Virus record (IMG/VR): IMGVR_UViG_3300009183_000110
Span: 1 to 57,755 of that record
Origin: a virus
Direction: 5' to 3' (one strand)
DNA: 57,755 nucleotides
Positions 28,635 through 46,942 of this stretch are shown one piece after another. The notes below the pieces were generated by a model. It did not search any database and had not been told where the DNA came from. It saw nothing but the letters and a program-made list of their open reading frames with translations. How positions within the stretch are numbered: position 1 is the first letter of the stretch; each line of letters opens with the position of its first letter. A program made the position numbers and the translations under genes.

Positions 28635-28663
28635 ACAGTACCACCGTAGGTTCAGACCTACAA
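28635..28663 (-). promoter_or_regulatory. TTGTAG-family promoter
   Basis: TTGTAG, 17 bp, TACTGT on the minus strand; contains GTAGGT-CTGA-ACCTAC. Motif A (28669) lies 5 bp upstream. Confidence 0.8.
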
Positions 28664-28694
28664 TTGGCACTTATCTATTACCAATAATTGAGCG

Positions 28695-29201
28695 CTAGAG
28701 CCACTCAAATAAATCGCCGTCAGCAATTTCGTCGTAGTCAAGGTCATTCGCATCAGCAATTGCCTGCCACACATTCTCCTCTGTCATAGGAGCGTCACCG
28801 AGATGGTCTTGCCAGCTCATGACCTTCTTCGTCTCTGCCTTGGTGATGAACACTGCGGAGCGAGCAAGACGCTCGGCTACTTCGTGAATGTCTTTGACCA
28901 ATTCTTCACGGAGACCCATTGTGTCACCTTCATCATCAGCACCGCCAGTGAATACAACATCACCCACGATAATGTCACGCCCTGCACCGTATGCATTGTC
29001 ATAGAAGTGTTGAGCAATGATGTTCTGCGAGAGACCGTCTAGTTTGCCTTCTTCGTTGCACCACATAGTCAGCGAGTTGGTGAAGTTTATTGCTTCAATG
29101 TATCCGCCCACTGCACTCTGCAGTGTTGCTAGTTCGTCACCCTCTAGGTCAAGCATTACTACTTCACCTGTGGTCTTTACTTGTAGAGCCGTCTTTGGCA
29201 T
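28695..29201 (-). CDS. DUF3846-domain protein, 168 aa
   Basis: ATG chosen for GAAGGGG upstream. The N-terminal about 100 residues (ALQVKTTGEVVMLDL..., GGYIEAINF, LTMWCNEEGKLDGLSQN, GRDIIVGDVVFTGG) match DUF3846, found in actinophages and a second copy at 40996. C-terminal extension is acidic and helical. Function unknown. Confidence 0.75.
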   Translation of the reverse strand: MPKTALQVKTTGEVVMLDLEGDELATLQSAVGGYIEAINFTNSLTMWCNEEGKLDGLSQNIIAQHFYDNAYGAGRDIIVGDVVFTGGADDEGDTMGLREELVKDIHEVAERLARSAVFITKAETKKVMSWQDHLGDAPMTEENVWQAIADANDLDYDEIADGDLFEWL

Positions 29202-29229
29202 CTCGTACCCCTTCCGTTGGTATGACCAC

Positions 29230-29258
29230 ACTGTACTGCACTAGGTACAGACCTACAC
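29230..29258 (-). promoter_or_regulatory. TTGTAG-family promoter
   Basis: GTGTAG, 17 bp, TACAGT, with GTAGGT-CTGT-ACCTAG. The upstream neighbour here is motif B (29257-29276), not motif A. Confidence 0.75.
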
Positions 29259-29303
29259 TTTTTTATCACGACCCCCAATGCACTCTCGCTCGCTCGCCGA
29301 TGA

Positions 29304-29347
29304 GAGCCCCGTCGGAGACGAACGGACTCCGCCGAAGACGGGGCTTC
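29304..29347. terminator. GAGCCCCG-family hairpin
   Basis: GAGCCCCGT pairs with ACGGGGCTT; the loop has further GGACTCCG-type pairing. Function as terminator inferred. Confidence 0.45.
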
Positions 29348-29403
29348 ATCACAACAGGGGACTTATCTATTACAAGTACGGGCTGGGTCACGGGCAAAGA
29401 AAA

Positions 29404-29430
29404 TCCCCCGAGCGGGGGGTGCTCGGGGGA
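29404..29430. terminator. Hairpin abutting motif A
   Basis: TCCCCCGAGC, loop GGGGGGT, GCTCGGGGGA; motif A starts at 29430. Located right after the 29443 gene. Confidence 0.55.
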
Positions 29431-29442
29431 CTTATCTATTAC

Positions 29443-29745
29443 CTATTGTTCGGCGAGGAGGCGGTAGCCCTCTTGCATCGCATCCAGTTGTGCGAGCGCA
29501 ATTTCCAGTGGAGCGCGGGTGATGGCCATGTAGCAATCGTAGGCCTTCATCGCAATCTCTTGACATTCGTTAGAGAGGTCGCGAACTGCGTTCTCAAAAT
29601 CGCGATAATTCTCAGCGTTCTCCTCGTCTGAGAAGCAGCAATCGCATGGTGTTGGCGTTCTTAGCGCCTCTACCATTTTCTTCATCTGGTCTGTTGATGC
29701 TTCCAGTTGCTCTTTGAGCATCTCGAATTTTTCCGTTGTTATCAT
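29443..29745 (-). CDS. Helical hypothetical protein, 100 aa
   Basis: ATG chosen for GAAGGGG about 7 bases upstream; a longer frame beginning in motif A has no Shine-Dalgarno. Long helices with PCDCCFSDEENAENYRDF suggesting a coiled-coil with a Cys motif. No family. Confidence 0.6.
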   Translation of the reverse strand: MITTEKFEMLKEQLEASTDQMKKMVEALRTPTPCDCCFSDEENAENYRDFENAVRDLSNECQEIAMKAYDCYMAITRAPLEIALAQLDAMQEGYRLLAEQ

Positions 29746-29771
29746 GGAAACCCCTTCCGTGGTCTGAACAG

Positions 29772-29800
29772 AGCGTACTACATAAGGTACAGAACTACAA
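29772..29800 (-). promoter_or_regulatory. TTGTAG-family promoter
   Basis: TTGTAG, 17 bp, TACGCT; motif A (29805) is 4 bp upstream. Confidence 0.8.
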
Positions 29801-29819
29801 GGGGACTTATCTATCACCA

Positions 29820-30119
29820 CTAGTCAACCCTCCAATGGTCTGGTTTGCCGTGGAAACCGTTCGGGTCTCGCAGGACGAACATTCCGTCTCGCACACTGCC
29901 GTTGTATTCGTGGTCAAGTGAATCGGCCTGATAAATTGCGAGACCCATTCTCTGAGCGATTTCGTCTGCGAACGAACGCAAATCTTTGTATCGGTCAAAG
30001 GCCACAGTTATGACGAACGATTTGTCGGGATTCCCGACTTCCATTTCCTCAACTAATTCATCTACCGAAATGCCTAGGCCTTCGGCTTTCTTTTTGAGAG
30101 AGCGTGTCTCTTTCCTCAT
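29820..30119 (-). CDS. Hypothetical protein, 99 aa
   Basis: GAAGGGG before ATG. Basic N-terminal helix (RKETRSLKKKAEGLG) then alpha/beta body (SFVITVAFDRYKDLRSFADEIAQRMG, GMFVLRDPNG). No family. Confidence 0.6.
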   Translation of the reverse strand: MRKETRSLKKKAEGLGISVDELVEEMEVGNPDKSFVITVAFDRYKDLRSFADEIAQRMGLAIYQADSLDHEYNGSVRDGMFVLRDPNGFHGKPDHWRVD

Positions 30120-30148
30120 TGGTCAACCCCTTCTACTGGTCTGATGAA

Positions 30149-30177
30149 ATCGTACCACAGCAGGTACAGGATTGCAA
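30149..30177 (-). promoter_or_regulatory. TTGTAG-family promoter (variant)
   Basis: TTGCAA, 17 bp, TACGAT; -35 deviates. Motif B (30193) lies 15 bp upstream. Confidence 0.6.
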
Positions 30178-30238
30178 CCTTTTCTTTTGGAAACTTTTCT
30201 ATCGCGACCCCCAATCATTCTCGCTCGCTCGCCGATGA

Positions 30239-30315
30239 GAGCCCCGTTCGTGCCGAACAGCCACGGGGCTGTCTTGAGAACGGGAAGAACCCCACCCGAG
30301 TGAGGTGGGGTTCTC
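30239..30315. terminator. Two adjacent GC-rich hairpins
   Basis: GAGCCCCGT (30239) with ACGGGGCT (ends 30270), then GAACCCCACC (30286) with GGTGGGGTTC (ends 30314). Located after the 30332 gene. Confidence 0.5.
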
Positions 30316-30331
30316 CGCTGGGGGGACTTAT

Positions 30332-30613
30332 CTATTCAGTAAGAGCGTCAGCGATGAACCTGGTAGCCCAACCCATTGGCTCGCACCGAATCACTTCGCC
30401 ATCAACTGTGACTTCGTCTCCAACTGAAAGCGCAGTGTGTGTGCGTGTGGCTGGCAGGAGCGGTTCCAGTTCGTCCCATATCGGACCAGCGTAAACATTC
30501 GTTTGGTGGAATATTGCATCGCATATCTCCAACGCGCTTGCGCTCGTGTCAAGCGCGAGTGCAGCCGATGTTGGTTCGCCGAACGCTTTCCATGTGATTG
30601 TTACTTGCTTCAT
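30332..30613 (-). CDS. Hypothetical protein, 93 aa
   Basis: ATG chosen for GAAGGG upstream. Contains VTITWKAFGEPTSAALAL and LSVGDEVTVDGEVIRCEPMGW, a small beta-rich protein. Stop TAG lies in motif A (30326). No family. Confidence 0.6.
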   Translation of the reverse strand: MKQVTITWKAFGEPTSAALALDTSASALEICDAIFHQTNVYAGPIWDELEPLLPATRTHTALSVGDEVTVDGEVIRCEPMGWATRFIADALTE

Positions 30614-30653
30614 GACTTTCCCTTCATGGGCGGGTACTTCCCGCCGTACAAGC

Positions 30654-30682
30654 ATCGTACCTGGTCAGGTACAGACCTACAC
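30654..30682 (-). promoter_or_regulatory. TTGTAG-family promoter
   Basis: GTGTAG, 17 bp, TACGAT; motif A (30681) is directly adjacent, sharing 2 bases, and fused to motif B-like CACAACCCCC. Confidence 0.75.
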
Positions 30683-30736
30683 TTATCTATCACAACCCCC
30701 ATCGCGTGTTGTTCGCGCCGAACACCCGAGCCGATG

Positions 30737-30781
30737 AGAGCCCCGTTCGAAACAATAGAGAACGAACGAGAACGGGGCTTC
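30737..30781. terminator. GAGCCCCG-family hairpin
   Basis: GAGCCCCGTTC pairs with GAACGGGGCTT; long loop with second pairing. No T-run. Confidence 0.45.
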
Positions 30782-30846
30782 TACCATTAGCGCAAAATCT
30801 TTCCGATTCCGGCAAGAAATTCCGGTGAAGAAAAAACCCGCCGGAA

Positions 30847-30882
30847 TTTCTCCCCGGCAGGGAATTTCGTGCCGGGGAGAAA
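30847..30882 (-). terminator. Likely terminator after 30898 gene
   Basis: TTTCTCCCCGGCA (30847-30859) pairs perfectly with TGCCGGGGAGAAA (30870-30882), and a T run follows on the minus strand (30831-30836). Confidence 0.6.
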
Positions 30883-30897
30883 AAGTTCACCGGGTGT

Positions 30898-31227
30898 CTA
30901 ACTCGCTTGCCTGACCAACTCATCGAAGCCCTTGCGAGCCTCTGTGAGCGTGCAGAAGTCAGGGTGGAGCGTGTAGGGCGCATTGGCCTCTAGGCCGTCC
31001 CACACGAGGACTACAGGGCAATCCACAAGGCAAGGGATGTATCCGCCACGCTCGTGCTCTGCTGCGTATTCCATCTCCTGAATCCATATTTCGATACGGG
31101 TGGTATCGCTCTTCCATGAGGCCACTGTGTGCTCCTCCCAGCAGGTTCCGATGGGTTCTAGGGCGAGGTTGTTTTTCTCGGCCCATGCTTCGGCTTTGGT
31201 GTAATCGGTGAAGTGTTTTTTTGTCAT
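30898..31227 (-). CDS. Hypothetical protein, 109 aa
   Basis: ATG lies 7 bases after the -10 of the promoter at 31234, so likely leaderless. Trp/His-rich (DYTKAEAWAEKNNLALEPIG, TRIEIWIQEMEYAAEHERGG). No family. Confidence 0.6.
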   Translation of the reverse strand: MTKKHFTDYTKAEAWAEKNNLALEPIGTCWEEHTVASWKSDTTRIEIWIQEMEYAAEHERGGYIPCLVDCPVVLVWDGLEANAPYTLHPDFCTLTEARKGFDELVRQAS

Positions 31228-31233
31228 GGCCAC

Positions 31234-31262
31234 AGAGTACCCGGGGAGGTACAGACCTACGG
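31234..31262 (-). promoter_or_regulatory. TTGTAG-family promoter, leaderless
   Basis: CCGTAG, 17 bp, TACTCT; the ATG at 31227 coincides with the expected start site. Confidence 0.65.
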
Positions 31263-31282
31263 ACATTTCGCGCTAACGATGA

Positions 31283-31369
31283 GAGCCCCGACGGAAACGA
31301 ACCCGAACGGGGCTTGTCCCTGCGATAAACCCCACGCCCCTGATGGAAGGGGGGGTGGGGGCGTGGGGA
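31283..31369. terminator. Two GC-rich hairpins
   Basis: GAGCCCCG (31283) with CGGGGCTT (ends 31315), then CCCCACGCCCC with GGGGGCGTGGGG (31331-31369). Follows 31394 gene. Confidence 0.5.
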
Positions 31370-31393
31370 GAACTTATCTATTCCAAGAGGTGG

Positions 31394-32002
31394 CTAGTAG
31401 CTGTCCTCGTAATCCAAGCGGTATTGCTCGTCCTGCTCCTCTTGCGTCATGTGTTCCATGCTGATGGAACGGTGACCTGCTTCGCACTCCCAACCAACTC
31501 GCACGCCGTTGCGAATGACATCTGCGAGCTTCGCACCACAATCAACGATTGCGTAGCGGTTGCCTGACTCTGCTGCTCGTTCACCGAGGCTTTCACCGTG
31601 CCACTGCCTGTGTTCGGCGTTCTCCTCATCTGTGTATTCGGGGTTCGGCACGAATGGGAAAGCTGCTTCCCATGAGCGCTCTACGAGCCAACCACAACGG
31701 CTAGCTGCCTCTTGTTCTTCGCGCCAGCGCTTGTACGCCTCTTGCTCTGCTTCGCGCTCTCGGTCGCCTTCCTCAATAATCCAGCCGTAAACATCTTGAC
31801 GAAGCTCGCAAAGCTCCTTGACTGCTTTGAGCGCCTGCTTGATTGTGAGCGCCTTGTCTCCGTCCCAGCCGAATGTTTCTACAAGCTCCTCGTCTGAGTA
31901 GCACTCGGCTAGTTCTGACTCAAAGAATGTCTGCGGGTCTGTGTAAGCAGGTAGCGCCTTGATTGCGTCTACTACTGCTGCGTGGTGTGGGTGTGTGTTC
32001 AT
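31394..32002 (-). CDS. Acidic hypothetical protein, 202 aa
   Basis: Glu-rich helical protein with a long coiled-coil-like centre (EEGDREREAEQEAYKRWREEQE). C-terminus acidic. No family; sits alone downstream of the 32030 peptide gene, with motif A (31372) after its stop. Confidence 0.65.
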   Translation of the reverse strand: MNTHPHHAAVVDAIKALPAYTDPQTFFESELAECYSDEELVETFGWDGDKALTIKQALKAVKELCELRQDVYGWIIEEGDREREAEQEAYKRWREEQEAASRCGWLVERSWEAAFPFVPNPEYTDEENAEHRQWHGESLGERAAESGNRYAIVDCGAKLADVIRNGVRVGWECEAGHRSISMEHMTQEEQDEQYRLDYEDSY

Positions 32003-32029
32003 CGGGTGTGGTTCCTTCCTTTGTCCGAA

Positions 32030-32131
32030 TTACTTTTTATCTTTTGGCTTTGATTTGCCGCGCTTATTCCAATGACCTGCGCCGCCTACGAATGAGGTAG
32101 GTGGGCGGCTGTTCTTATCGTGTGGCTTCAT
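32030..32131 (-). CDS. Small basic protein, 33 aa
   Basis: AAGGAG 6 bases before ATG. Product MKPHDKNSRPPTSFVGGAGH then a Lys-rich tail. First gene downstream of the TATAAT promoter, just upstream of 31394. No family. Confidence 0.55.
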   Translation of the reverse strand: MKPHDKNSRPPTSFVGGAGHWNKRGKSKPKDKK

Positions 32132-32175
32132 GTGGGCTCCTTGTGGGTTGTTGTGGTGGTTGTGGGCGTGCGCGG

Positions 32176-32204
32176 ATTATACAAAAGTAGGTACAAACCT
32201 ACAT
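32176..32204 (-). promoter_or_regulatory. TTGTAG-family promoter with TATAAT
   Basis: ATGTAG, 17 bp, TATAAT, the strongest -10 of the family, with GTAGGT-TTGT-ACCTAC. Supports treating TTGTAG/TANNNT as true promoter elements. Confidence 0.85.
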
Positions 32205-32300
32205 TTTTACGACCGCAAACCCTTTATTTGCAAGGAGTTGCGTTTTGCAATCGGTCAGTTTTGTAAAAGATTTAAACCACTTATCTATCCCTTATTTCGC

Positions 32301-32326
32301 CAGCTCCCAGCTCCCAGCTCCCAGCT
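32301..32326 (+). repeat. 7-bp tandem repeat
   Basis: CAGCTCC repeated three times plus CAGCTG. Confidence 0.8.
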
Positions 32327-32335
32327 GAAATCTTG

Positions 32336-32472
32336 CTTATTTATCGCGACCCCCCAAGCTTGCTGCTCTCGGCGTCACGCGCGCGAGGTAGAAGCCCCGT
32401 TAGGAGCGAACAGCATCGGGGCTCCCATGCGCTGGCATAACTGCCTTGCAACGGGGGTAGAGATAGAAAAGT
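32336..32472. repeat. Palindromic MITE-like element E1
   Basis: Motif B inverted at both ends (32336-32355 minus, 32453-32472 plus) around a GAAGCCCCG/CGGGGCTCC hairpin (32391-32425). 137 bp. Confidence 0.75.
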
Positions 32473-32724
32473 TGCTGACTCGCTTACTTTCTCCGAGCGA
32501 AGCCTGCTTTCTATTACTGAATAGATAAGTCGTTTCGTTTTCGTATCAAGATGACGCTTCTATCAACTGCGAGCATCGTTTTCAGAAACGGAGACGATGA
32601 CACGTCTAATAGGTAACGGACAAAAACTTTTGACATAAAGAGATGCAAGGACTCTTGTAAAAGATGTAAGAAAAAATGTCCGATTGTAAAACACAAGCAA
32701 CCTCATAAGAGGTGAGAGGAAAAA

Positions 32725-33036
32725 ATGAAAAAAACAAAAGCACTCCAACCGTACTTTGCAACTAGCACCAACCAGTTCTCTGATGAGTACGAGCAAGATG
32801 ACATGACTACATCTGTCATCTATGACGAGATTGCCGATGGCTACATCTGTGCGTACTGCGCCGAGGACTTAGGTCTCAACAGCGAAGAGATAAAAACGCA
32901 TCAAGCATTGTTGAGTGAGTACGAAGGTGGTGGTCATCTTTCATCTGCGTACATCGTCAAGAGAAAAACAAAAAAGACACTTGCACATTACGATTGTTTG
33001 CAATGCGACTTACCAGTGTCTCGTTCGTTTGATTAG
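32725..33036 (+). CDS. Zinc-binding-like protein, 103 aa
   Basis: Shine-Dalgarno GAGAGG. CAYCAEDLG and CLQCDLP are two CxxC zinc pairs. The only plus-strand gene inside the minus block. Motif A (33039) lies 2 bases after its stop. Confidence 0.7.
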   Translation: MKKTKALQPYFATSTNQFSDEYEQDDMTTSVIYDEIADGYICAYCAEDLGLNSEEIKTHQALLSEYEGGGHLSSAYIVKRKTKKTLAHYDCLQCDLPVSRSFD

Positions 33037-33050
33037 TAATAGATAAGTGT

Positions 33051-33125
33051 TCACCACCATCTATCGTCACGAACTATTGCTATTAGAACTGCAAGCGTTA
33101 CTGCAATAACAAATAAAAAAACCAT
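33051..33125 (-). CDS. Micro membrane protein, 24 aa
   Basis: AAAGGA 6 bases before ATG. Product is one transmembrane helix (VFLFVIAVTLAVLIAIV) plus RDDRWW. It follows the 33138 membrane protein by 12 bases; may be a small regulator or holin-like peptide (inference). Confidence 0.5.
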   Translation of the reverse strand: MVFLFVIAVTLAVLIAIVRDDRWW

Positions 33126-33137
33126 AATCAATCCTTT

Positions 33138-33428
33138 CTATGAGTCCATGTATGGGTCGTACCATTCCCATGTGCCGTTCTCATTGAGAACAACGCTTTG
33201 GTAATGACGGCAATCTGCAAGCGTCTTGGTTGGATTGAGCACTGCGAACTCACGAGCGTTCCATGTGAAGTCACGCTCTAATGTCACATCACAATCGGGT
33301 GTTTCATCAGATGCAAAAACTGCAATAGATGTTGTAACAATCCACATGATTACTGCGAGTATCGTTCCCCAAAAGATAAAACGAATGACAGACCTAAGTG
33401 TGTAATAACTATCGCTTTTGTTATTCAT
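33138..33428 (-). CDS. Membrane protein, 96 aa
   Basis: One N-terminal transmembrane helix (FIFWGTILAVIMWIVTTSIAVFA) preceded by a basic stretch, then an extracytoplasmic part with Cys pair (PDCDV, LADCRHY). Coupled with 33431 and 33670 genes. Confidence 0.65.
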   Translation of the reverse strand: MNNKSDSYYTLRSVIRFIFWGTILAVIMWIVTTSIAVFASDETPDCDVTLERDFTWNAREFAVLNPTKTLADCRHYQSVVLNENGTWEWYDPYMDS

Positions 33429-33430
33429 GA

Positions 33431-33670
33431 TTAGTAGTCCTCTGACTTATCTATTACCCATAGTGGGAATGGTTGCTTGTAACAAAAGTATTCGTAATCT
33501 CTTTCAGCAATGCCTGTCACCCACATTGCATCAGTTCTTTCGTGGAGAGGTGTTGTACGGTCATCGCCTATGCGAGCACTGACATTCTGCATTGCTACTG
33601 CCATTGCTCCATCGTCATCTTCTGCCTCAACATCAAGCGTGACCTGAACAGTTACACGGTAAGTAAACAT
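33431..33670 (-). CDS. Hypothetical protein, 79 aa
   Basis: Begins in a TGATG overlap with the 33670 gene. Beta-rich (YRVTVQVTLDVEAEDDDGAM). Its C-terminus WVIDKSEDY includes motif A in frame (33445), so the motif has extended or replaced the original tail. Confidence 0.65.
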   Translation of the reverse strand: MFTYRVTVQVTLDVEAEDDDGAMAVAMQNVSARIGDDRTTPLHERTDAMWVTGIAERDYEYFCYKQPFPLWVIDKSEDY

Positions 33671-34083
33671 CAGCAACCTGCCATTCGTTCAGCACGACTT
33701 TCAGATGCGCTATCAAATGCGTACTGACGGTAGTTGTCAATGAACTCAATAACTTCTTCAGGCAATGCGCCTTCGTTCATCTCATAGACCTTTCCACTTC
33801 CATCACACGCTTCACAACGGTCATCGTAAGCACCACGCAAGTACGCTTCACGAGACTCATCGCTCCACTCTGCAAACTCTTCTGAACTCATTGCACCGAA
33901 ACGGCGAGAGTGTCCACCGTTGCCACGGCAGTAATCACAGATGACCCACTCCATGTGGAATGTGAAAGGTGCAAGTTCTTCATCTTTCACGGCATCAAGT
34001 AAAGCATCAAGCAACTTTTTATCTGACTCAATAACTTGAGCCTCGTACGAAAGTTGTATTCCGTCATAATCTATTTTTGACAT
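33670..34083 (-). CDS. DnaJ-like zinc-finger protein, 137 aa
   Basis: CDYCRGNGGH and CEACDGSGKV are the paired CxxCxGxG motifs of DnaJ/YtxH-type zinc fingers; no J domain. GAAGGGGG before ATG. Likely protein- or nucleic-acid-binding adaptor. First gene of a four-gene minus unit from the 34122 promoter. Confidence 0.75.
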   Translation of the reverse strand: MSKIDYDGIQLSYEAQVIESDKKLLDALLDAVKDEELAPFTFHMEWVICDYCRGNGGHSRRFGAMSSEEFAEWSDESREAYLRGAYDDRCEACDGSGKVYEMNEGALPEEVIEFIDNYRQYAFDSASESRAERMAGC

Positions 34084-34121
34084 TTAGTTCCCCCTTCAGG
34101 AAAGTGTTATGTGGTCACTCA

Positions 34122-34150
34122 ATAGTAACCCAATAGGTACAGAACTGCTA
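34122..34150 (-). promoter_or_regulatory. TTGTAG-family promoter
   Basis: TAGCAG, 17 bp, TACTAT; motif A (34156) is 5 bp upstream. Confidence 0.65.
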
Positions 34151-34249
34151 GGGGTACTTATCTATTACAGATAACCCGAGCTTCTCCCTCGCAACGAGGA
34201 GCAGACTTTTTTATCACGACCCCCACCACCGAAGCAAGCGAAGCGCAAG

Positions 34250-34334
34250 GGAGCCCCGTTGGGAACGAGCGAGCCGGGGCTTCCTTGGTCATCACTCTGA
34301 GCGAGTTCTTCTTTCACTCAGAGTGGTTGATGAC
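34250..34334. terminator. Two hairpins after 34342
   Basis: GGAGCCCCG (34250) pairs with CCGGGGCTTCC (ends 34284). A second hairpin, GTCATCACTCTGAG (34288) with CTCAGAGTGGTTGATGAC (ends 34334), runs into motif A (34333). Confidence 0.5.
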
Positions 34335-34341
34335 TTATCTA

Positions 34342-34863
34342 TTACCGATTGGCTGGGAGTGCTGGTAGCAACTCCCAATGCTCAACTGCAAGGCACTCGG
34401 CTTCGGGGTAGGTGCCATGCGAGGTCTCCACCATTGTGGTCTCGTAGTTGATAACGGACTTGGTTTCCGAAACGCCGTGGATGTCCTCGGAGAGCCACTT
34501 GCCTTCAACAAGAATGAGCGAGCCTTCGGCGATTGCAGCGCTTTTTGGAAACTGCACAAATGCGAACCCTCTCGGAATGTCATCCCATCCGTTGCTTCCC
34601 CAATTGAGATAGCCCGTGCCTTCGGTGAGGCACCAAATGCAACCACAGGCTTCCATCGCTGAACCCTGCTCGTCGTCCTCTGCTTGGTTGTAAGAGCACT
34701 GGCGCTCTTCCTTGATGAGATTGACAATGTCTTGGTCAAAGAAGTTGGGGTGGAATGTTCCAACCACAGCGAGTGCATCGCCTTCCTCTTTGACTTCGTA
34801 AACGAAAAGCACAGTGCGAGCCTGCACCTCTTCGTCCTCCAACTGCTGAACAACACCGAACAT
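34342..34863 (-). CDS. Hypothetical protein, 173 aa
   Basis: ATG chosen for GGAAGGG upstream. Cys-rich segment QGSAMEACGCIWCLTEG. Stop TAA is followed by motif A. No family recognised. Confidence 0.6.
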   Translation of the reverse strand: MFGVVQQLEDEEVQARTVLFVYEVKEEGDALAVVGTFHPNFFDQDIVNLIKEERQCSYNQAEDDEQGSAMEACGCIWCLTEGTGYLNWGSNGWDDIPRGFAFVQFPKSAAIAEGSLILVEGKWLSEDIHGVSETKSVINYETTMVETSHGTYPEAECLAVEHWELLPALPANR

Positions 34864-34904
34864 GGCATCCCTTCCTGCTGGGAGACCATCCCCCAACTGG
34901 ACAC

Positions 34905-34933
34905 AGAGTACATGGTGAGGTACAAACCTCCAC
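34905..34933 (-). promoter_or_regulatory. TTGTAG-family promoter (variant)
   Basis: GTGGAG, 17 bp, TACTCT; motif A (34938) is 4 bp upstream. Confidence 0.6.
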
Positions 34934-34976
34934 CGAGACTTATCTATGAAAGAAAGACCCTGACCGATTAGATGAA

Positions 34977-35113
34977 ACTTTTTTATCACGACCCCCAAGA
35001 GTAGGGAAGCGCCCTTCCCGATGGGAGCCCCGAGGGAACCGAGCGCGAACGGGGCTCCAACCGTAAGAGTCCGAGAGACTCCGAGGCTGTGACGGGGGTT
35101 GAGATAGATAAGC
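34977..35113. repeat. Palindromic MITE-like element E2
   Basis: Motif B at both ends (34977-34996 minus; 35094-35113 plus, the latter fused to a motif A-like ATAGATAAGC) around GGAGCCCCG/CGGGGCTCC (35024-35058). 137 bp, same length as E1. This lies between divergent genes and marks the strand switch. Confidence 0.75.
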
Positions 35114-40475: not shown

Positions 40476-40880
40476 ATGGAAGCAGAAACAATCAACCAAG
40501 CAGTAGAGGCTTTTCTCACTGCTCTAACAGCCAAAGAGCAAGCCGAGCAGGCGCATGACGAAGCGAGAGAGTTGCTTATCGCAACATTCGCAATCGCAGG
40601 CGTGAGCGAAGCCGAGTTCGCAGAACTGAATGTCAAAGTCTCGCCAGCAGAACGCCGTTCGTTCTCTGTTGAGAAATTGCGTGAGCAACTTTCGCCAGCA
40701 TTGTTTCGCAAGGTCACCAAGCCAGCGATTGACACTAAGGCGTGGGACAGCGCAGTAGGCAAGGGCGAAATCACCAAGAAGGTCATCAAGTCCTGCGTGG
40801 AAATCACGAACAGTGTGCGAGTTCTCGTGAAGCCTGCCAAAGGTTCAGTCAAGCCTGCGAGCAAAGCAGAAGCCGTCTAA
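40476..40880 (+). CDS. Helical hypothetical protein, 134 aa
   Basis: ATG chosen for AAAGGGG upstream. Ala/Glu-rich helices (EAFLTALTAKEQAEQAHDEAREL) with a basic Lys/Pro/Ala tail. No family. Confidence 0.65.
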   Translation: MEAETINQAVEAFLTALTAKEQAEQAHDEARELLIATFAIAGVSEAEFAELNVKVSPAERRSFSVEKLREQLSPALFRKVTKPAIDTKAWDSAVGKGEITKKVIKSCVEITNSVRVLVKPAKGSVKPASKAEAV

Positions 40881-40893
40881 CCAATTCATCTGC

Positions 40894-40921
40894 GAGTAGT
40901 GGGGAGAAGTCCCCACTACTC
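40894..40921. terminator. Perfect 12-bp hairpin
   Basis: GAGTAGTGGGGA, loop GAAG, TCCCCACTACTC. No T run. Overlaps the start of AATAGATAAGT (40922). Confidence 0.55.
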
Positions 40922-40936
40922 AATAGATAAGTCCAC

Positions 40937-40965
40937 CAGTAGTTCTGTACCCACAGTGGTACGCT
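40937..40965 (+). promoter_or_regulatory. TTGTAG-family promoter
   Basis: CAGTAG, 17 bp, TACGCT; motif A (40923) is 4 bp upstream. Confidence 0.7.
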
Positions 40966-40995
40966 ATCAACACCTACCAAACAAGGAGAGCCATC

Positions 40996-41439
40996 ATGGC
41001 AACAGCAATAATCATCAAGTCCACAGGTGAAGTATTCACGCAGGACATACCAAGCGAGAACGGTCACACACTCATTCACGAAATCGTGGGTGGCTGGTTT
41101 GACTGTGTACGAGGCGAAGAAATCGTGGGCTATGTCCATGACGAAGGATTGCTTATCGGGCTACCAGTGAACGCCGTAGCGTCTATGTTGTTCCAGCGTC
41201 CACTTGTGGGTGACTGCGTTGTAATCGGCTCTCTCAACGAGCGTGGCGAGTATGACGGAGAGAACCACGACATTCCAGCAACCTACACATCAGGACGCTT
41301 TTTTGACTTTGCGAAAGAAATCGCAGAGATGGAAGTCATCAAAGAAATGCTGACCAAAGAAATCGCTGAAATGGATTTCAGACCAACCATTACCGAGATG
41401 ACAGATGAGCAGATGAACGCTTGGTTGGGTGGCGAGTAA
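40996..41439 (+). CDS. DUF3846-domain protein, 147 aa
   Basis: GGAGAG before ATG. GGWFDCVRGEEIVGYVHDEG and GLPVNAVASMLFQRPLVGDCVVIG match DUF3846; paralogue of 28695 but divergent. Its end overlaps the next ATG in a TAATG. Confidence 0.75.
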   Translation: MATAIIIKSTGEVFTQDIPSENGHTLIHEIVGGWFDCVRGEEIVGYVHDEGLLIGLPVNAVASMLFQRPLVGDCVVIGSLNERGEYDGENHDIPATYTSGRFFDFAKEIAEMEVIKEMLTKEIAEMDFRPTITEMTDEQMNAWLGGE

Positions 41440-41756
41440 TGTCAATAGATAAGTCCCCTACCGAGACATACCCAATGCGATTGCTGAAAGTGGGTGACAC
41501 ATTCACTCCTAGCAGTGGCAGTAATCCTGTCACCATTCTCGCTTGCTGGCTCTCTCGCCCGTCTGACATTGACGCTTACGCCGTGTGGGTTGTTCTCTGT
41601 CTCTTGCCACACAACACGCTTCACCCGTTCGCAGTGTGGAACGCCGTAGACCGTCCCGAAGGTTGGCACATGGAGAATGGTGATTACCGTGAAACCGTTA
41701 CTGAGGCTACTGCTCAATACGAGAGGCGTGGTGGGCATTATCTCCTGACCGAGTGA
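41439..41756 (+). CDS. Hypothetical protein, 105 aa
   Basis: ATG at 41439 overlaps the upstream TAA; motif A encodes residues 3-5 (MSIDKSPT). Pro/Trp-rich (CWLSRPSDIDAYAVWVVLCLLPHNTLHPFAVW). Followed at 41759 by minus motif A, so this two-gene cassette (40923-41768) has inverted motif A ends. Confidence 0.65.
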   Translation: MSIDKSPTETYPMRLLKVGDTFTPSSGSNPVTILACWLSRPSDIDAYAVWVVLCLLPHNTLHPFAVWNAVDRPEGWHMENGDYRETVTEATAQYERRGGHYLLTE

Positions 41757-41837
41757 CCACTTATCTATTCAGTAGTCTCCCTTGCGCTCGGCAGGGGAGA
41801 TTGCTCTATGTAATAGATAAGTCCCATCTTCTCCATT

Positions 41838-41871
41838 GGAGCCCCGCCTGCGCTGGTCCGTCCGGGGCTCT
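41838..41871. terminator. GGAGCCCCG hairpin
   Basis: GGAGCCCCG pairs with CCGGGGCTC, followed by TTTC. Confidence 0.5.
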
Positions 41872-42000
41872 TTCGGAACAGGGCAAAAATCTGGGGGGTC
41901 GGGATAAAAAAGTTGATTTTTTGCGAATTCGTCGGTCGAGCTGGGGGTCGCGATAAAAAAGTCGCCGTTAGCAATTGACGGTGGTGGATGAGTCTGCTGA

Positions 42001-42029
42001 TTGACTTTTCGGATAAATCTATCTACACT
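42001..42029 (+). promoter_or_regulatory. TTGACT-17-TACACT promoter, leaderless
   Basis: TTGACT (42001-42006), 17 bp containing GGATAAATCTATC, TACACT (42024-42029). ATG at 42037 lies 7 bases after the -10, so likely leaderless. Confidence 0.6.
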
Positions 42030-42036
42030 AAAAAAC

Positions 42037-42348
42037 ATGACTGACCTAAACATAGAAGAAATCTTTGACAGCGTTCCTGACGAACTGCGCCCTGACAAGA
42101 TGGGGTACAGGTTTGCTCTACAAGAGGAGAGCGAACATGACCGAGGGATTTACTGGAAGGCAGTTGTCTCACGCAATGGTGTGGAGTTCCTGACCGTGTA
42201 CAACATGGGAGAAGGTGGGTGCAACCGTTACACGGAGACGAACGAGTTGATGTTCTCGGACTTCCAGTTCCTAGCCTCGGACGCATTTCCGTCAATGTCA
42301 GAGCCGTTGGACATTCTCGTACTGTGGCTTGACTACCTCTGTTCATGA
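42037..42348 (+). CDS. Hypothetical protein, 103 aa
   Basis: No Shine-Dalgarno; the -10 of the 42001 promoter ends 7 bases upstream, so leaderless. Beta-rich protein (IYWKAVVSRNGVEFLTVYNMGEGG). TGA abuts motif A (42349). No family. Confidence 0.6.
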   Translation: MTDLNIEEIFDSVPDELRPDKMGYRFALQEESEHDRGIYWKAVVSRNGVEFLTVYNMGEGGCNRYTETNELMFSDFQFLASDAFPSMSEPLDILVLWLDYLCS

Positions 42349-42363
42349 ATAGATAAGTCCCCC

Positions 42364-42392
42364 TTGTAGTTCCGTACCTCTTGTGGTACAGT
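42364..42392 (+). promoter_or_regulatory. TTGTAG-family promoter
   Basis: TTGTAG, 17 bp, TACAGT; motif A (42349) is 5 bp upstream. Confidence 0.85.
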
Positions 42393-42423
42393 GAAGGCGA
42401 AGCCAACCACAAAGGGGAAAGTA

Positions 42424-42639
42424 ATGGCAACAAAAGAATACGAAATAATCGCTCTGCTGACAAAGCAGGAAAAGATTGGTCTTGCCGAGTGGACAGAAGA
42501 TACCACCGTAGAAGCCAAGAGCCTAAAAGAAGCAGGCAAAATGGCTAGAACATTCGGCAGGAATGTTGCAGGCTTGGCAGGAGCCAAGTTGGAAGATGCT
42601 TACGCTATTGACATGGAAACAGGAGAACACTCAGAATGA
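42424..42639 (+). CDS. Hypothetical protein, 71 aa
   Basis: AAAGGGGAAAG upstream. First of a five-gene unit (42424-43635). Helical (AKSLKEAGKMARTFGRNVAGLAG). ATGA overlap with next. Confidence 0.65.
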   Translation: MATKEYEIIALLTKQEKIGLAEWTEDTTVEAKSLKEAGKMARTFGRNVAGLAGAKLEDAYAIDMETGEHSE

Positions 42640-42863
42640 GTACAGATACAAAATACCCACACATCAACATTCCACTAGTAGGAGAGGACGGCAACGCCTT
42701 CTCCATACTTGGGCGTGTGCAGAGAATTGCTCGGCGAGCAGGATTGACTGCCGATGAGATAGAGGCGTTTCGTGCCGAAGCAACATCGGGCGATTACGAT
42801 AACCTGCTTCTAACAGTGATGCGCTGGTTCTCCGTGGACAGCGACTATGAAGATGAGGAATAG
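42636..42863 (+). CDS. Conserved phage protein, 75 aa
   Basis: INIPLVGEDGNAFSILGRVQRIARRAG...SGDYDNLLLTVMRWF is a pattern I recognise from many actinophages. TAG lies in motif A (42860); the next gene's GTG follows in the same element (TAGATAAGTG). Confidence 0.8.
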   Translation: MSTDTKYPHINIPLVGEDGNAFSILGRVQRIARRAGLTADEIEAFRAEATSGDYDNLLLTVMRWFSVDSDYEDEE

Positions 42864-42867
42864 ATAA

Positions 42868-43083
42868 GTGGCTCTTTACGAAGTAACAGCAATAGTTGGA
42901 CCAGCAACAGTAAGGGAAGTGCTGAGCATTGACTCGGCAAATCTTTCTACGGAAGAAGTTGCGAACCTTGCGATGGAAGTTGTACTGGACAGATGGAAAG
43001 CATCGTTTGGTGTAGATTTCTCAAAAATTGCAGACACGATTTCATCGCACGTAGCAGAGGAAGTACAAAATGACGAAAACTAG
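42868..43083 (+). CDS. Hypothetical protein, 71 aa
   Basis: GTG start is the tail of motif A (ATAAGTGGC), which thus supplies stop and start at once. Alpha/beta (YEVTAIVGPATVREVLSI). No Shine-Dalgarno; translation by coupling. Confidence 0.6.
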   Translation: MALYEVTAIVGPATVREVLSIDSANLSTEEVANLAMEVVLDRWKASFGVDFSKIADTISSHVAEEVQNDEN

Positions 43084-43315
43084 CAAATACGCAGTTGATG
43101 AAATCCTATGGGAAAACTATTACAGCATTGGCGTTAGTCGTGCTGGCGCAATGGCGAACATTTGGTGTGACTACGAGAACGGAATGATGTTCCCGTGGGC
43201 TAACGAGGAATGGGGCATTACCGAAAAAGAACTGCTGGAATCCATTGCACGATTGACTATTGCCCTGATTGGTACCGACCTGACCGAACAGTTCAGCGTT
43301 TGGCGAAGGGCATGA
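43070..43315 (+). CDS. Hypothetical protein, 81 aa
   Basis: Overlaps the previous gene by 14 bases. Aromatic-rich (ILWENYYSIGVSRAGAMANIWCDYENG). No family. Confidence 0.6.
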   Translation: MTKTSKYAVDEILWENYYSIGVSRAGAMANIWCDYENGMMFPWANEEWGITEKELLESIARLTIALIGTDLTEQFSVWRRA

Positions 43316-43317
43316 GA

Positions 43318-43635
43318 ATGGTAATAGATAAGTCATTCGCCCACATTTGGTCTTTGATAAAGACTCTCTTTCTGATGATGACAAAAAAAAAGTTTATTGG
43401 AGCGCAGTGCCAGATAAAGCCACAGAGGTCTTATGGCTCTTATGAGGGATACGAGAACATGTACATCTCGTTCTCACCCAAGCCCGAGCGTGGATTCTTT
43501 GATAGCCACGGCGTTCCGTTGGAAGATGTGTTCACGCACCTTACCGATGTCAAGGAACTACTGCACTACATGACACACCGTCACGCTTACGGCTGGTACA
43601 TCCACTCGGCACAACTCGTAACTCTCCCTATGTAA
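43318..43635 (+). CDS. Hypothetical protein, 105 aa
   Basis: ATG in ATGGTAATAGATAAGT (as at 37959), so residues 2-5 are VIDK. An alternative ATG at 43375 (MTKKKFIGAQ) has GATGAT upstream and is possible. Ends LVTLPM-TAA abutting motif A (43635). Confidence 0.55.
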   Translation: MVIDKSFAHIWSLIKTLFLMMTKKKFIGAQCQIKPQRSYGSYEGYENMYISFSPKPERGFFDSHGVPLEDVFTHLTDVKELLHYMTHRHAYGWYIHSAQLVTLPM

Positions 43636-43657
43636 TAGATAAGTCCTTTTCCCAAAA

Positions 43658-43691
43658 GAGCCCCGGGGCGAACCAAACTGGTCGGGGCTCC
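43658..43691. terminator. GAGCCCCG hairpin
   Basis: GAGCCCCG pairs with CGGGGCTC; followed by motif B (43730 and 43760). Confidence 0.5.
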
Positions 43692-43830
43692 TTCGGAACA
43701 CGGCGAAAAAGAGAAAAAATCGGCGCATGGGGGGTAGAGATAGAAAAGTCAAAAATCTTGGGGGATGAGATAGAAAACTTTTGCTCGTTAGTCAATGACG
43801 GTGGTGGATGAGTAATAGATAAGTCCCCCC

Positions 43831-43859
43831 GAGTAGTTCTGAACCTGTGCTGGTACGCT
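43831..43859 (+). promoter_or_regulatory. TTGTAG-family promoter
   Basis: GAGTAG, 17 bp, TACGCT; motif A (43815) is 6 bp upstream, and it is directly after motif C (43796). Confidence 0.7.
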
Positions 43860-43893
43860 CATTGCATACCACCACTAACCCGAAAGGACTACC

Positions 43894-44550
43894 ATGCCAA
43901 ACTGGTGCTTCTCAAACCTTGTTGTTGCAGGGAACAAAACAGAAACTCGTAAGTTTCTCAAAGCAATCTCAATGCCCGAAGATTATGATGAACTAGGGCG
44001 CAAGATAAACGCTCACTATGACATGAACCATCTAGTACCTATCCCTGACGAGAGTGAATGGGTGGACAAACTTGATTCTTTCTTTGGTGGCGCACTTGGC
44101 GTGTGGGGAAGCAAGTGGGGTGCTTGTGACATAGAGATTGACGATAAAGATTCGTACCCACTACATCTGCGCTACACGAGCGCATGGAGTCCATGTGACA
44201 AGTTGATTGAGAACATCAGCAAGCAGTTCCCTAAATTGGTATTTGGGTACAGTTGCACAGAAGAAGCAGATTTCTACGCTGGTTGGGAACTTTACTGTGA
44301 CGGCGAAAAGATTGCAGAGGACATGTGTGACATGACGCAACCACCTGAACTGATACAGATGTACGAAAAAGCGTCAGAATCAGGGCTTGACGAGTTGTAT
44401 GACGAGTTCTACGAAGCACAAAGTGAATGGCGCAATCTCATCACTGACCAGCATGACATAGATTTGGATGCCACTATCAGGGAGTATGTGGCATGGAGAA
44501 GGGGAAATAAAAGGAGAAAGGTGTTTCAGAGTTTCATTCCGTCATTCTGA
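43894..44550 (+). CDS. DUF1281/Api92-like ferredoxin-fold protein
   Basis: 218 residues starting MPNWCFSNLVVAGN, with GVWGSKWGACDIEIDD and HLRYTSAWSPCDKLIENISKQFP, diagnostic of the phage Api92-like/YubB family. Role unknown; members occur in phages and mobile elements. CGAAAGGA before ATG. Confidence 0.8.
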   Translation: MPNWCFSNLVVAGNKTETRKFLKAISMPEDYDELGRKINAHYDMNHLVPIPDESEWVDKLDSFFGGALGVWGSKWGACDIEIDDKDSYPLHLRYTSAWSPCDKLIENISKQFPKLVFGYSCTEEADFYAGWELYCDGEKIAEDMCDMTQPPELIQMYEKASESGLDELYDEFYEAQSEWRNLITDQHDIDLDATIREYVAWRRGNKRRKVFQSFIPSF

Positions 44551-44584
44551 ACTAAATAGATAAGTCCCCAAGAGAGGAAACAAC

Positions 44585-44791
44585 ATGGGAAACGCAACAG
44601 AAGTAATTGCCACACGGCTAAAAACTGAAAGAAAAGAAAGAGGCTGGTCACAAGAGGAACTAGCAAAGCGAGCAGGGCTGGAACGAAAAACGGTGAACCG
44701 TATTGAGAACCAACATTATTCGCCGAGCGTGGACACTCTTGTCTCGCTAAGTGACGCACTAAGTCTCCCCATTCAGGGGTTGCTTGGATAG
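44585..44791 (+). CDS. XRE-family HTH regulator, 68 aa
   Basis: ATG after GAGAGGAAAC. TRLKTERKERGWSQEELAKRAGLERKTVNRIEN is a typical Cro/CI-like HTH; no C-terminal domain. It lies directly upstream of a TTGTAG promoter (44792, overlaps its stop). Candidate binder of motif A or the promoter operator (inference). Confidence 0.85.
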   Translation: MGNATEVIATRLKTERKERGWSQEELAKRAGLERKTVNRIENQHYSPSVDTLVSLSDALSLPIQGLLG

Positions 44792-44820
44792 TTGTAGTTC
44801 TGTACCTGTACTGGTACGAT
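44792..44820 (+). promoter_or_regulatory. TTGTAG-family promoter
   Basis: TTGTAG, 17 bp, TACGAT. No motif A directly upstream; begins at the stop of the XRE gene. Confidence 0.8.
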
Positions 44821-44851
44821 GACTGCACACCTACCAACAAGGAGAAAGCCA

Positions 44852-45520
44852 ATGGCTATCAACGAAACCATTTCAGAAGAAATGTCAAAAATAATGCTGG
44901 ATGTTCTTGACCGTACTAAGTACGCCAAAGAGCAAATGTGCAAAGACGAGGGGATGACAGACACTCCCCCACTCATGCTCGTTGCTTACAAGAGCGATGA
45001 CGAAGATGCAGTTGAGTATCAGGAAGAAAACGAATTATCTTCTCCATACAAGATTGCAATGATTCCACTCATTCACCGTGAAGATGTATTAGAGGCGTAC
45101 GAAGATGTAGTCAAGGCTATGCCTATCCGTGAGTTCTCTTTCCTCTTTCTCTGTGTAGAGGGTTTCTGCCGTAGTGCAGACACATCAGAAGAAATTGACT
45201 TTGAGCGTGGCGAAATGCAGAAAGACTTTTCAGAGAATCCTTTTTCAGAAGTCCGTGAAGCAATCGTTGTTACTGGCATGGACTGGGATGGTTCGTTGAT
45301 TGGTAGTGCTACTCAAATGTATCGCTACGATGACTTTGGAGTTCCTGTGTATTCGGAAGAAGATTACATGGCAGATGTAAGCGAAGTAAAAGAAGGTCAG
45401 GAGTACGGACGCATGGTTGAGGCTATGGGTGCTACCACTGCCTACATGAAACTCGCCGTAGTTGCTCACCGTTACCACGACCTACTTGGTAACGCTAAGA
45501 AAAAGAAAGATGAGGAATAG
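44852..45520 (+). CDS. Hypothetical protein, 222 aa
   Basis: ATG chosen for AAGGAG upstream. Acidic helical-beta mix (HREDVLEAYEDVVKAMPIREFSFLFLCVEG). TAG in motif A (45517). No family. Confidence 0.65.
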   Translation: MAINETISEEMSKIMLDVLDRTKYAKEQMCKDEGMTDTPPLMLVAYKSDDEDAVEYQEENELSSPYKIAMIPLIHREDVLEAYEDVVKAMPIREFSFLFLCVEGFCRSADTSEEIDFERGEMQKDFSENPFSEVREAIVVTGMDWDGSLIGSATQMYRYDDFGVPVYSEEDYMADVSEVKEGQEYGRMVEAMGATTAYMKLAVVAHRYHDLLGNAKKKKDEE

Positions 45521-45524
45521 ATAA

Positions 45525-45764
45525 GTGTCTGAGCCAAAAACAATCACAGTAACTCGCACCAATACTGTCACATTTGATGTGGCAGAAACGGCAAAGCGAT
45601 TCAGAGAGGACAACGATGAGAAGCCCGACTTTGATGACATCATGGAAATGATTATGTTGGAAGCCGATGAATACTTTGACGACTGTGCAGGAGAGGGAAA
45701 GAAGAAGTACACCGATGAAGAAGGCAACGAACTTGACATGGTTATTTACGGGTACGCAGAATGA
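45525..45764 (+). CDS. Acidic hypothetical protein, 79 aa
   Basis: GTG start is the tail of motif A (ATAAGTGTC), as at 42868. Contains TITVTRTNTVTFDVAETAKRFRE. ATGA overlap with next gene. Confidence 0.6.
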   Translation: MSEPKTITVTRTNTVTFDVAETAKRFREDNDEKPDFDDIMEMIMLEADEYFDDCAGEGKKKYTDEEGNELDMVIYGYAE

Positions 45765-45919
45765 GTGAAGAATCTGTAATAGATAAGTCACCAATCGTCT
45801 TGTTGATTGACAAAGCAATCTCCCACTGTTCAGGCAGAGACATTGTTTCGTCATTAGAAATGACAGATTTTCTATTAGACATGCGAATCATCGCGTTACA
45901 AGAGAAAGAGCCAGCATGA
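45761..45919 (+). CDS. Hypothetical protein, 52 aa
   Basis: ATG overlaps the previous TGA. Motif A in frame (SVIDKSPI, 45779). Ends in ATGA with the next gene. Helical; no family. Confidence 0.55.
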   Translation: MSEESVIDKSPIVLLIDKAISHCSGRDIVSSLEMTDFLLDMRIIALQEKEPA

Positions 45920-46125
45920 TAGATAAGTTGTCAGCAGGACTAGAAGCACTTATTGGCAGGAGAATCAGGCTGATTTACACATCTGACATTCACACCAAAC
46001 TATCCAAAGGAGATGAAGGGGTCATTACCGACTTTGATTCACTAGGAACAATGTTTGTGCAGTGGGATAGTGGGTCTAGTCTCGGACTAATCAAGGGAGA
46101 GGACAGTTGGGTTGTTATTGACTAA
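45916..46125 (+). CDS. DUF4314 protein, 69 aa
   Basis: ATG fused to motif A (ATGATAGATAAGTTG). RIRLIYTSDIHTKLSKGDEGVITDFDSLGTMFVQWDSGSSLGLI matches the KOW-like DUF4314 of phages. Downstream minus motif A (46137) closes the unit. Confidence 0.8.
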   Translation: MIDKLSAGLEALIGRRIRLIYTSDIHTKLSKGDEGVITDFDSLGTMFVQWDSGSSLGLIKGEDSWVVID

Positions 46126-46205
46126 CAGCCCAACTTACTTATCTATCAAAAAAACGATTTTTTAGAAAAAAACTAAACGGTAGAAACTGCAAAAAAAAGG
46201 AAAAA

Positions 46206-46688
46206 ATGCAAACTATTACAGATGACCTAATCAAAGAAGTACACAAAGAACATTGGGCAGTGCTTCTCAAAAAATACAAAAACGCAACAGCAGTTCCGTT
46301 CTCGGAAGTTTCTTATGTTTCTGAAATAAACAGAGGACTTTATGTATTGCAGATTTGGCAACGAGAAGGTGGACAGCGTGTACCACAATCGTACCTAAGT
46401 ACATACTCGGTGCAGGCAGAAGTATCAAAGTACCTTCTATCAACATTCATCGGACTATCTGACGCACAGGTAGAAGTAGAACGCACAGAGAAGCGCAAAG
46501 ATAAGTGGTCAGCATTTGAGCAGTGGTCAAGCGAACATCAGGCAGAGCAATTTACATCTGACCAACTCACAGAACAATCAGGATTCTCTTACCAGACAAC
46601 TTTGACCTACCTCAAAGAATCTCCATTATTTCGCAAAATCAAAAATGGACTATGGGAAGTTCTTATGGTTCCCAAACGAGAAAAATAA
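46206..46688 (+). CDS. Hypothetical protein with winged-helix-like C-terminus, 160 aa
   Basis: AAAAAGGA before ATG. C-terminal part (FTSDQLTEQSGFSYQTTLTYLKES..., IKNGLWEVL) resembles a winged helix. N-terminal half alpha/beta. Possible DNA-binding; weak. Confidence 0.6.
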   Translation: MQTITDDLIKEVHKEHWAVLLKKYKNATAVPFSEVSYVSEINRGLYVLQIWQREGGQRVPQSYLSTYSVQAEVSKYLLSTFIGLSDAQVEVERTEKRKDKWSAFEQWSSEHQAEQFTSDQLTEQSGFSYQTTLTYLKESPLFRKIKNGLWEVLMVPKREK

Positions 46689-46722
46689 AACTATCTGTAA
46701 TAGATAAGTCCCCTTTCCCATA

Positions 46723-46757
46723 GGAGCCCCGGCACTGCTCGGCAACATCGGGGCTCC
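46723..46757. terminator. GGAGCCCCG hairpin
   Basis: GGAGCCCCG pairs with CGGGGCTCC; motif A (46700) before, motif B (46784) after. Confidence 0.5.
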
Positions 46758-46913
46758 AACGCAGAAGGGCGTGTGGCGAGCATGGGGGTAGAGATAAAAA
46801 AGTTTGCGCTGGCGCACTCGCTCGCTCGCTTGCCCACAAGTGGAGAGTGAATAGATAAGTGGTGCGCTTCTGATACTGAATAGATAAGTCTCTACTGAAT
46901 AGATAAGTCAGGT

Positions 46914-46942
46914 TTGTAGGTCTGTACCTACGCTGGTATGGT
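46914..46942 (+). promoter_or_regulatory. TTGTAG-family promoter
   Basis: TTGTAG, 17 bp, TATGGT, with GTAGGT-CTGT-ACCTAC. Three motif A copies (46851, 46880, 46899) lie upstream, the last by 5 bp. Confidence 0.85.

Follow-up and report, generated by a model that had tools for sequence, protein, structure and literature searches.

What does a short DNA word do when it recurs dozens of times among the small genes of a large phage, beside promoters and at gene ends alike, in a spelling private to that phage? The question is raised by a 57,755-nt stretch of viral DNA (IMG/VR record IMGVR_UViG_3300009183_000110; hereafter the window), which sits reversed inside the 158.7-kb IMG/VR contig G001, from a phage of about 159 kb. 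Here motif A, an asymmetric 11-mer (AATAGATAAGT), occurs in 54 exact copies against 0.01 expected, and in 67 copies when one mismatch is allowed. A first-pass annotation had noted its position just upstream of the −35 element of a promoter family and proposed a UP element or the site of an activator next to sigma. A promoter-tied, protein-binding regulatory site is well supported. The proposed reading is nevertheless too narrow, because most copies lie off promoters, with a second peak at stop codons. On balance, and by a little, we favor the view that a single protein encoded by the phage, most likely a repressor, recognizes motif A as its specific DNA-binding site, and that the copies of the motif form a stoperator-like operator network. 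Such a network resembles an off-switch that serves one silencing protein across the genome, not a simple promoter booster.

Motif A and the promoter family

The promoters have the form TTGTAG-17-TAnnnT with a conserved spacer (GTCTGTACCTnnnnTGG). An iterated promoter matrix finds 22 sites in the window and none in the reversed sequence; with the weak site at 21613 dropped, the 21 promoters of the first-pass annotation remain. Admitting at most one mismatch, motif A ends 4 to 8 bp before the −35 hexamer in 14 of them (4 bp in seven cases, 5 bp in four, and 6, 7, and 8 bp once each), two of the 14 being one-base variants (29805, 34938). When 53 motif sites were instead placed randomly at noncoding positions of the region, on the local gene strand, promoter-linked sites averaged 0.65 and never exceeded 5 in 5000 trials. 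The linkage reported earlier is thus reproduced, as is the preference for gaps of 4 or 5 bp (11 of the 14). A further motif, described as directly adjacent to its −35, is indeed linked, although it overlaps the hexamer by 2 bp (30681-30691), and the supposedly fixed distance has a tail up to 8 bp and a 4-5 bp rule that is particular to one phage. The matrix sites are as follows.

28635-28679, minus: promoter with motif A (28669-28679), gap 5 bp
29772-29815, minus: promoter with motif A variant GATAGATAAGT (29805-29815), gap 4 bp
30654-30691, minus: promoter with motif A variant (30681-30691), −35 overlapped by 2 bp
34122-34166, minus: promoter with motif A (34156-34166), gap 5 bp
34905-34948, minus: promoter with motif A variant CATAGATAAGT (34938-34948), gap 4 bp
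35159-35202, plus: promoter with motif A (35159-35169), gap 4 bp
35934-35977, plus: promoter with motif A, gap 4 bp
37143-37190, plus: promoter with motif A, gap 8 bp
38611-38654, plus: promoter with motif A, gap 4 bp
39436-39479, plus: promoter with motif A, gap 4 bp
40386-40432, plus: promoter with motif A, gap 7 bp
40922-40965, plus: promoter with motif A, gap 4 bp
42348-42392, plus: promoter with motif A, gap 5 bp; motif also abuts upstream stop codon
43814-43859, plus: promoter with motif A, gap 6 bp
46898-46942, plus: promoter with motif A, gap 5 bp; extra motif A at 46850 and 46879
20684-20712, plus: family promoter without motif A
29230-29258, minus: promoter without motif A; overlapping G-run variant (motif B)
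30149-30177, minus: promoter without motif A; G-run variant GATAGAAAAGT 15 bp upstream
31234-31262, minus: promoter without motif A
32176-32204, minus: promoter without motif A
44792-44820, plus: promoter without motif A

Copies at gene ends and between genes

Promoter-linked sites make up 15 of the 67 copies. A second concentration is seen around codirectional stop codons: 19 copies fall between −12 and +20, where 4.7 are expected. The excess recurs in the relatives G003, G005, G009, and G021; in G006, G007, and G012 it is weaker. The motif midpoint is noncoding in 89% of copies, in a region that is itself 33% noncoding, and 51 of 67 copies (76%; p=2e-5) are oriented with the nearest gene. 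Other copies lie around hairpins, and a few are intragenic, often at gene starts, in which position they read I-D-K. Within G001, all copies of motif A but one outlier are confined to about 33 kb.

Under the favored reading, an operator and stoperator network would span about 30 kb of small, presumably early genes. Where the protein covers the −35 or sits immediately before it, it would hinder initiation; at gene ends and in intergenic positions, where its sites mostly share one orientation, it would stop RNA polymerase read-through, so that the entire region could be kept silent gene by gene. The copies away from promoters are listed below.

28227-28237, minus: stop codon on one side, hairpin on the other
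28154-28164, minus: intergenic, GAGCCCCG hairpin downstream
29361-29371, minus: intergenic
29430-29440, minus: stop codon 3 bp before, hairpin after
30326-30336, minus: overlaps stop codon
31372-31382, minus: stop codon 12 bp before, hairpin after
32520-32530, plus: upstream side of a lone plus-strand gene
33038-33048, plus: 2 bp past the stop of the lone plus-strand gene
33445-33455, minus: gene boundary
34333-34343, minus: at stop codon
35665-35675, plus: overlaps stop codon
35862-35872, plus: intergenic
36832-36842, minus: opposite orientation, within hairpin
36875-36885, minus: opposite orientation
37964-37974, plus: gene junction, in-frame I-D-K
38397-38407, plus: intergenic, hairpin downstream
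39206-39216, minus: opposite orientation, beyond hairpin
39231-39241, minus: opposite orientation
39279-39289, plus: intergenic
40015-40025, minus: opposite orientation, within hairpin
40060-40070, plus: intergenic
41444-41454, plus: 5 bp past stop codon
41759-41769, minus: opposite orientation
41812-41822, plus: GAGCCCCG hairpin downstream
42859-42869, plus: overlaps stop codon
43323-43333, plus: 8 bp past stop codon
43634-43644, plus: hairpin downstream
44555-44565, plus: 5 bp past stop codon, XRE gene downstream
45516-45526, plus: overlaps stop codon
45778-45788, plus: 14 bp past stop codon
46699-46709, plus: 11 bp past stop codon, hairpin downstream
46850-46860, plus: tandem cluster member
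46879-46889, plus: tandem cluster member
47756-47766, plus: within 515-aa gene, I-D-K
48455-48465, plus: within 515-aa gene, I-D-K
49252-49262, plus: at stop codon
49380-49390, minus: motif A
49408-49418, minus: motif A
51766-51776, plus: intragenic
56627-56637, minus: at stop codon
24079-24089, plus: within helicase gene, antisense
25343-25353, minus: within helicase gene

Two other repeats share this part of the window (28000-47500). Hairpins of the form GAGCCCCG...CGGGGCT, probably terminators, are repeated between genes in at least 12 copies, and similar ones occur in relatives. A G-run motif (GGGGGTCGTGATAAAAAAGTC / GGGGGTAGAGATAGAAAAGTC; about 20 copies) has a 3′ end like that of motif A and probably represents composite or weaker sites for the reader of motif A; a G-rich variant, GGGGGTnGnGATARAAAAGT, shares intergenic regions with motif A.

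Private spellings and concerted change among relatives

Relatives (the set G001-G021) were collected by searching with the AAA protein of the window phage. Some are contained in Actinomycetota metagenome-assembled genomes (MAGs), and the nearest isolated, annotated phages share distant AAA proteins only; among these is a Dishui Lake actinomycete phage in which genes for WhiB and HslV also occur. The host of the window phage is therefore probably a freshwater actinobacterium.

Every motif-A relative has its own high-copy word at the same kinds of places, in about a dozen spellings overall (for example, GGTGTAGGTAAGTC, CTAATAGATAACT, AGGTAGATAAGTC, AGAGTAGATAACT, GGAGTAGATAAGTC, ACTAGATAAGT, and CTAAAGGATAATGTAA), among which GATAA is the best-conserved half. 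Between strains of the same spelling, motif identity is 96-99% as compared to 78-84% for noncoding flanks, a sequence signature of purifying selection on the motif sites. Between G003 and G009, 51 sites can be aligned; 43 carry the partner's own motif and none is identical. At least 43 orthologous sites have, by this alignment, switched spelling together between close relatives. Concerted change of this kind, with positions conserved, is what a trans-acting reader of altered specificity would be expected to leave, and we take it to indicate one. That the host encodes the reader is unlikely, since the promoter core stays recognizable as the motif changes.

The geometry also varies. The distance between the motif end and the TAnnnT box has its peak at 27-28 bp in the window phage, at 25 in G007, at 24 and 28 in G003, and at 24 and 31 in G009. 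It is 15 bp in G006 and G021, where the AGATAA of the motif itself occupies the −35 at 17-bp spacing. High-copy words of three further relatives (G013, G014, and G019) were set aside as being promoters themselves and not motif A. That of G019 (L179-L181), CTTACAAGGCATAATG, is promoter-like, with a TTGT −35 and a start codon 5-6 bp after the word, and looks like a leaderless promoter family.

A LexA-type box and the candidate regulators

Several genes of the window encode candidate regulators or binders, one of them beneath a predicted LexA site.

50514-50527, plus: LexA-type SOS box CGAACATATGTTCG, a perfect palindrome, upstream of the HA-HTH gene
50124-50504, minus: protein of 126 aa with HA domain and sigma-region-4-like helix-turn-helix (HTH), candidate switch regulator
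44585-44791, plus: XRE/Cro-CI type HTH protein, 68 aa, candidate regulator
55839-56189, minus: WhiB-like transcription factor, 116 aa
55214-55558, plus: Arc-like (ribbon-helix-helix) protein
20282-20662, plus: basic helical protein, 126 aa, family restricted to motif-A phages, candidate binder

The box has the form CGAAC-N4-GTTCG, lies in the promoter region of the HA-HTH gene, 10 bp before that gene as delimited in the window, and occurs once in the 158.7-kb contig; the actinobacterial LexA consensus is tCGAAC-N4-GNNCGa (PMC9380542). In all 41 of 41 motif-A loci the HA-HTH gene is preceded, at 22-25 bp, by a LexA box, compared with none of 37 loci without a motif-A word, and two further motif-A loci from MAGs contain a match somewhere in the locus. 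Given this conserved box and the known phage regulators that are under LexA control and trigger induction (PMC3121763), a damage-responsive switch in motif-A phages is plausible. As with 186 Tum, N15 AntC, the Gifsy antirepressors, and GIL01, a phage regulator carries a LexA box in its promoter region, but the present one differs from those in its DNA-binding domains, which are of the HA and HTH kinds. Conceivably, this regulator, under host LexA control, takes part in lifting the silencing after DNA damage.

As to the other candidates, a model of the basic helical protein (20282-20662) finds no fold match in the PDB. A winged helix-turn-helix (wHTH)-like family, p32242, was dropped as exclusive to motif-A phages when a profile search gave weak homologues elsewhere; by eye, its same-motif pairs are no closer than different-motif pairs, and its model has weak MarR/MntR-like matches only.

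Comparison with Cluster A stoperators and other systems

The closest known parallel is found in the Cluster A phages L5 and Bxb1, whose 24 and 34 asymmetric 13-bp repressor sites are mainly intergenic and co-oriented with transcription; these stoperators are proposed to block elongation, and their spelling differs between heteroimmune groups (PMC3029335, PMC6550527, PMC9283540). Applied to Bxb1 as a control, our motif pipeline recovers its word at 35 sites, of which 91% share an orientation and 14% lie well within genes. Motif A shares with these stoperators a short asymmetric sequence in more than 20 (indeed dozens of) copies, a mostly intergenic placement, a tendency toward one orientation relative to transcription, a private, group-specific spelling, and some sites at promoters. 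It differs in being more numerous and denser (67 copies in the window vs. 35 found in Bxb1), in its limitation to one region of a genome of about 159 kb, in its strong peaks at stop codons and 4-5 bp upstream of the −35, and in a weaker orientation bias (76% vs. 91%); copies well inside genes amount to 10% vs. 14%. Motif A would work like stoperators, one phage protein acting at many asymmetric sites to silence initiation as well as elongation, but our comparison does not support membership of the Cluster A family: searches found no Bxb1 repressor homologue in 21 motif-A contigs, no integrase in ten records, and no member of the ParA-like family in the window phage.

WhiB7-dependent promoters offer a second likeness, with an AT-rich element, contacted by WhiB7, immediately upstream of a sigma-A type −35 (PMC3905903), and a phage WhiB gene likewise lies nearby here. 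In contrast to that element, motif A is an exact, phage-private 11-mer found mostly off promoters. WhiB7-type activation further involves a WhiB protein with an AT-hook; the WhiB-like protein of the window has a tail that is basic and conserved.

Weighing the explanations

A UP element, that is, A/T tracts for the alpha C-terminal domains at −40 to −60 of promoters only, is rejected in view of the exact private 11-mer, whose spelling differs in close relatives with a recognizable promoter core, and of the location of most copies elsewhere. The main rival, to which we assign a low but appreciable probability, is a phage activator that binds at about −41 to −51 beside sigma region 4 and recruits RNA polymerase in a class II-like or WhiB7-like manner, the remaining copies being secondary. 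It could draw on the preferred 4-5 bp gap in the window, the weak −35 hexamers, the replacement of the −35 by the motif in G006 and G021, and a WhiB-like gene in the window, WhiB7 being known to bind directly upstream of the −35 (PMC3905903). Against this, the offset to the −10 spans 15 to 31 bp among relatives, corresponding neither to one geometry nor to whole helical turns; a single rigid activator-polymerase arrangement cannot easily accommodate such variation, whereas a repressor fits. Moreover, the WhiB-like protein hardly varies among phages whose motifs differ, even in its basic conserved C-terminal tail, and the majority of copies lie off promoters, strongly enriched after stop codons. 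The sigma-adjacent activator proposed by the first-pass annotation is hence disfavored. It is more doubtful still that the LexA-controlled HA-HTH protein itself reads motif A, with its HTH on the conserved GATAA half and its variable HA domain on the private half. Within its 126 aa the protein has a predicted pair of DNA-binding domains, the motif-A phages are exactly those with its LexA box, and GATAA is the most conserved motif half, yet protein distances do not follow motif distances (partial r=0.07, p=0.32), and the protein is also found in relatives without motif A.

Readings outside transcription fare worse. The very high copy number within one region, together with ParA-like genes in several relatives, would suit a partition or nucleoid-organizing site in a parS-like array, but the ParA family was not found in the window phage, G005, or G021, and placement tracks promoters, stops, and gene direction; we regard this as very improbable. 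The lowest probability falls to a recombination or gene-shuffling boundary. T4-type promoter-early stem-loop (PeSL) cassettes are repeated promoter and stem-loop units between small genes of unknown function, and motif A sites similarly flank single-gene cassettes and are situated between hairpins and promoters. Unlike PeSL units, however, motif A is a brief word that resembles a protein site and is under point selection, homologous exchange would normally need more than 11 bp, and insertion/deletion breakpoints between strains of the same motif mostly miss it, on which ground the boundary was rejected. An RNA hairpin element was also discarded: stable structure is not in excess beside the copies across phages, and no Rfam match was found.

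Several observations weigh against the stoperator-like network as well. The position of motif A upstream of the −35 in the window would equally suit an activator, and 24% of copies oppose the nearest gene, more than in Bxb1. With Bxb1 gp69 as query, phmmer found no homologue of the L5 gp71 / Bxb1 gp69 repressors among the open reading frames of 21 motif-A contigs. No tyrosine or serine integrase (PF00589, PF00239) was matched in the ten records searched, and a ParA-like gene is present in part of the set (G003, G006, G007, G008, G009, and G012), the family not being found in the window phage, G005, and G021; a lysogenic life cycle is thus conjectural. Neither the correlation of protein with motif distances nor the comparison of HTH candidates assigned a reader. 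The top match of the partial Mantel scan was a probably non-regulatory protein, and the recognition helices of the known HTH candidates are nearly invariant while the motif changes, the conserved recognition regions being those of WhiB, XRE, HA-HTH, and the C-terminal wHTH of 46206-46688. Finally, the 41 LexA-box loci resemble one clade by AAA identity and are phylogenetically non-independent, so that a Fisher test treats them as more independent than they are; since they are related, the association of the box with motif A may reflect a single gain.

A broader claim is possible, though we hold it only tentatively: that large freshwater actinobacterial phages possess a new class of silencing network, in which an unrelated binder acts at 50-120 private sites gating each early promoter and gene end, with concerted respelling and SOS coupling via the LexA-controlled HA-HTH regulator, and without integrase. 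If so, large phages of freshwater bacteria that are hard to culture evolved stoperator-like silencing outside the Cluster A mycobacteriophages. Because the spellings at orthologous sites grade from one relative to the next, these phages allow a test of how a regulator and its dozens of sites change specificity together, a question that is open in the study of superinfection immunity. The LexA link suggests that a damage-responsive quiescent state may exist in phages where no integrase was found.

Other features of the window and its relatives

A 4250-aa open reading frame at 140-12892 encodes a polyvalent giant protein with matches to a ParB C-terminal region and a DNA polymerase exonuclease. 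Across G001-G021, a conserved word, ATGACGGTGGTGGA, occurs in 1-8 copies per relative, on one strand per contig and independently of the private motif.

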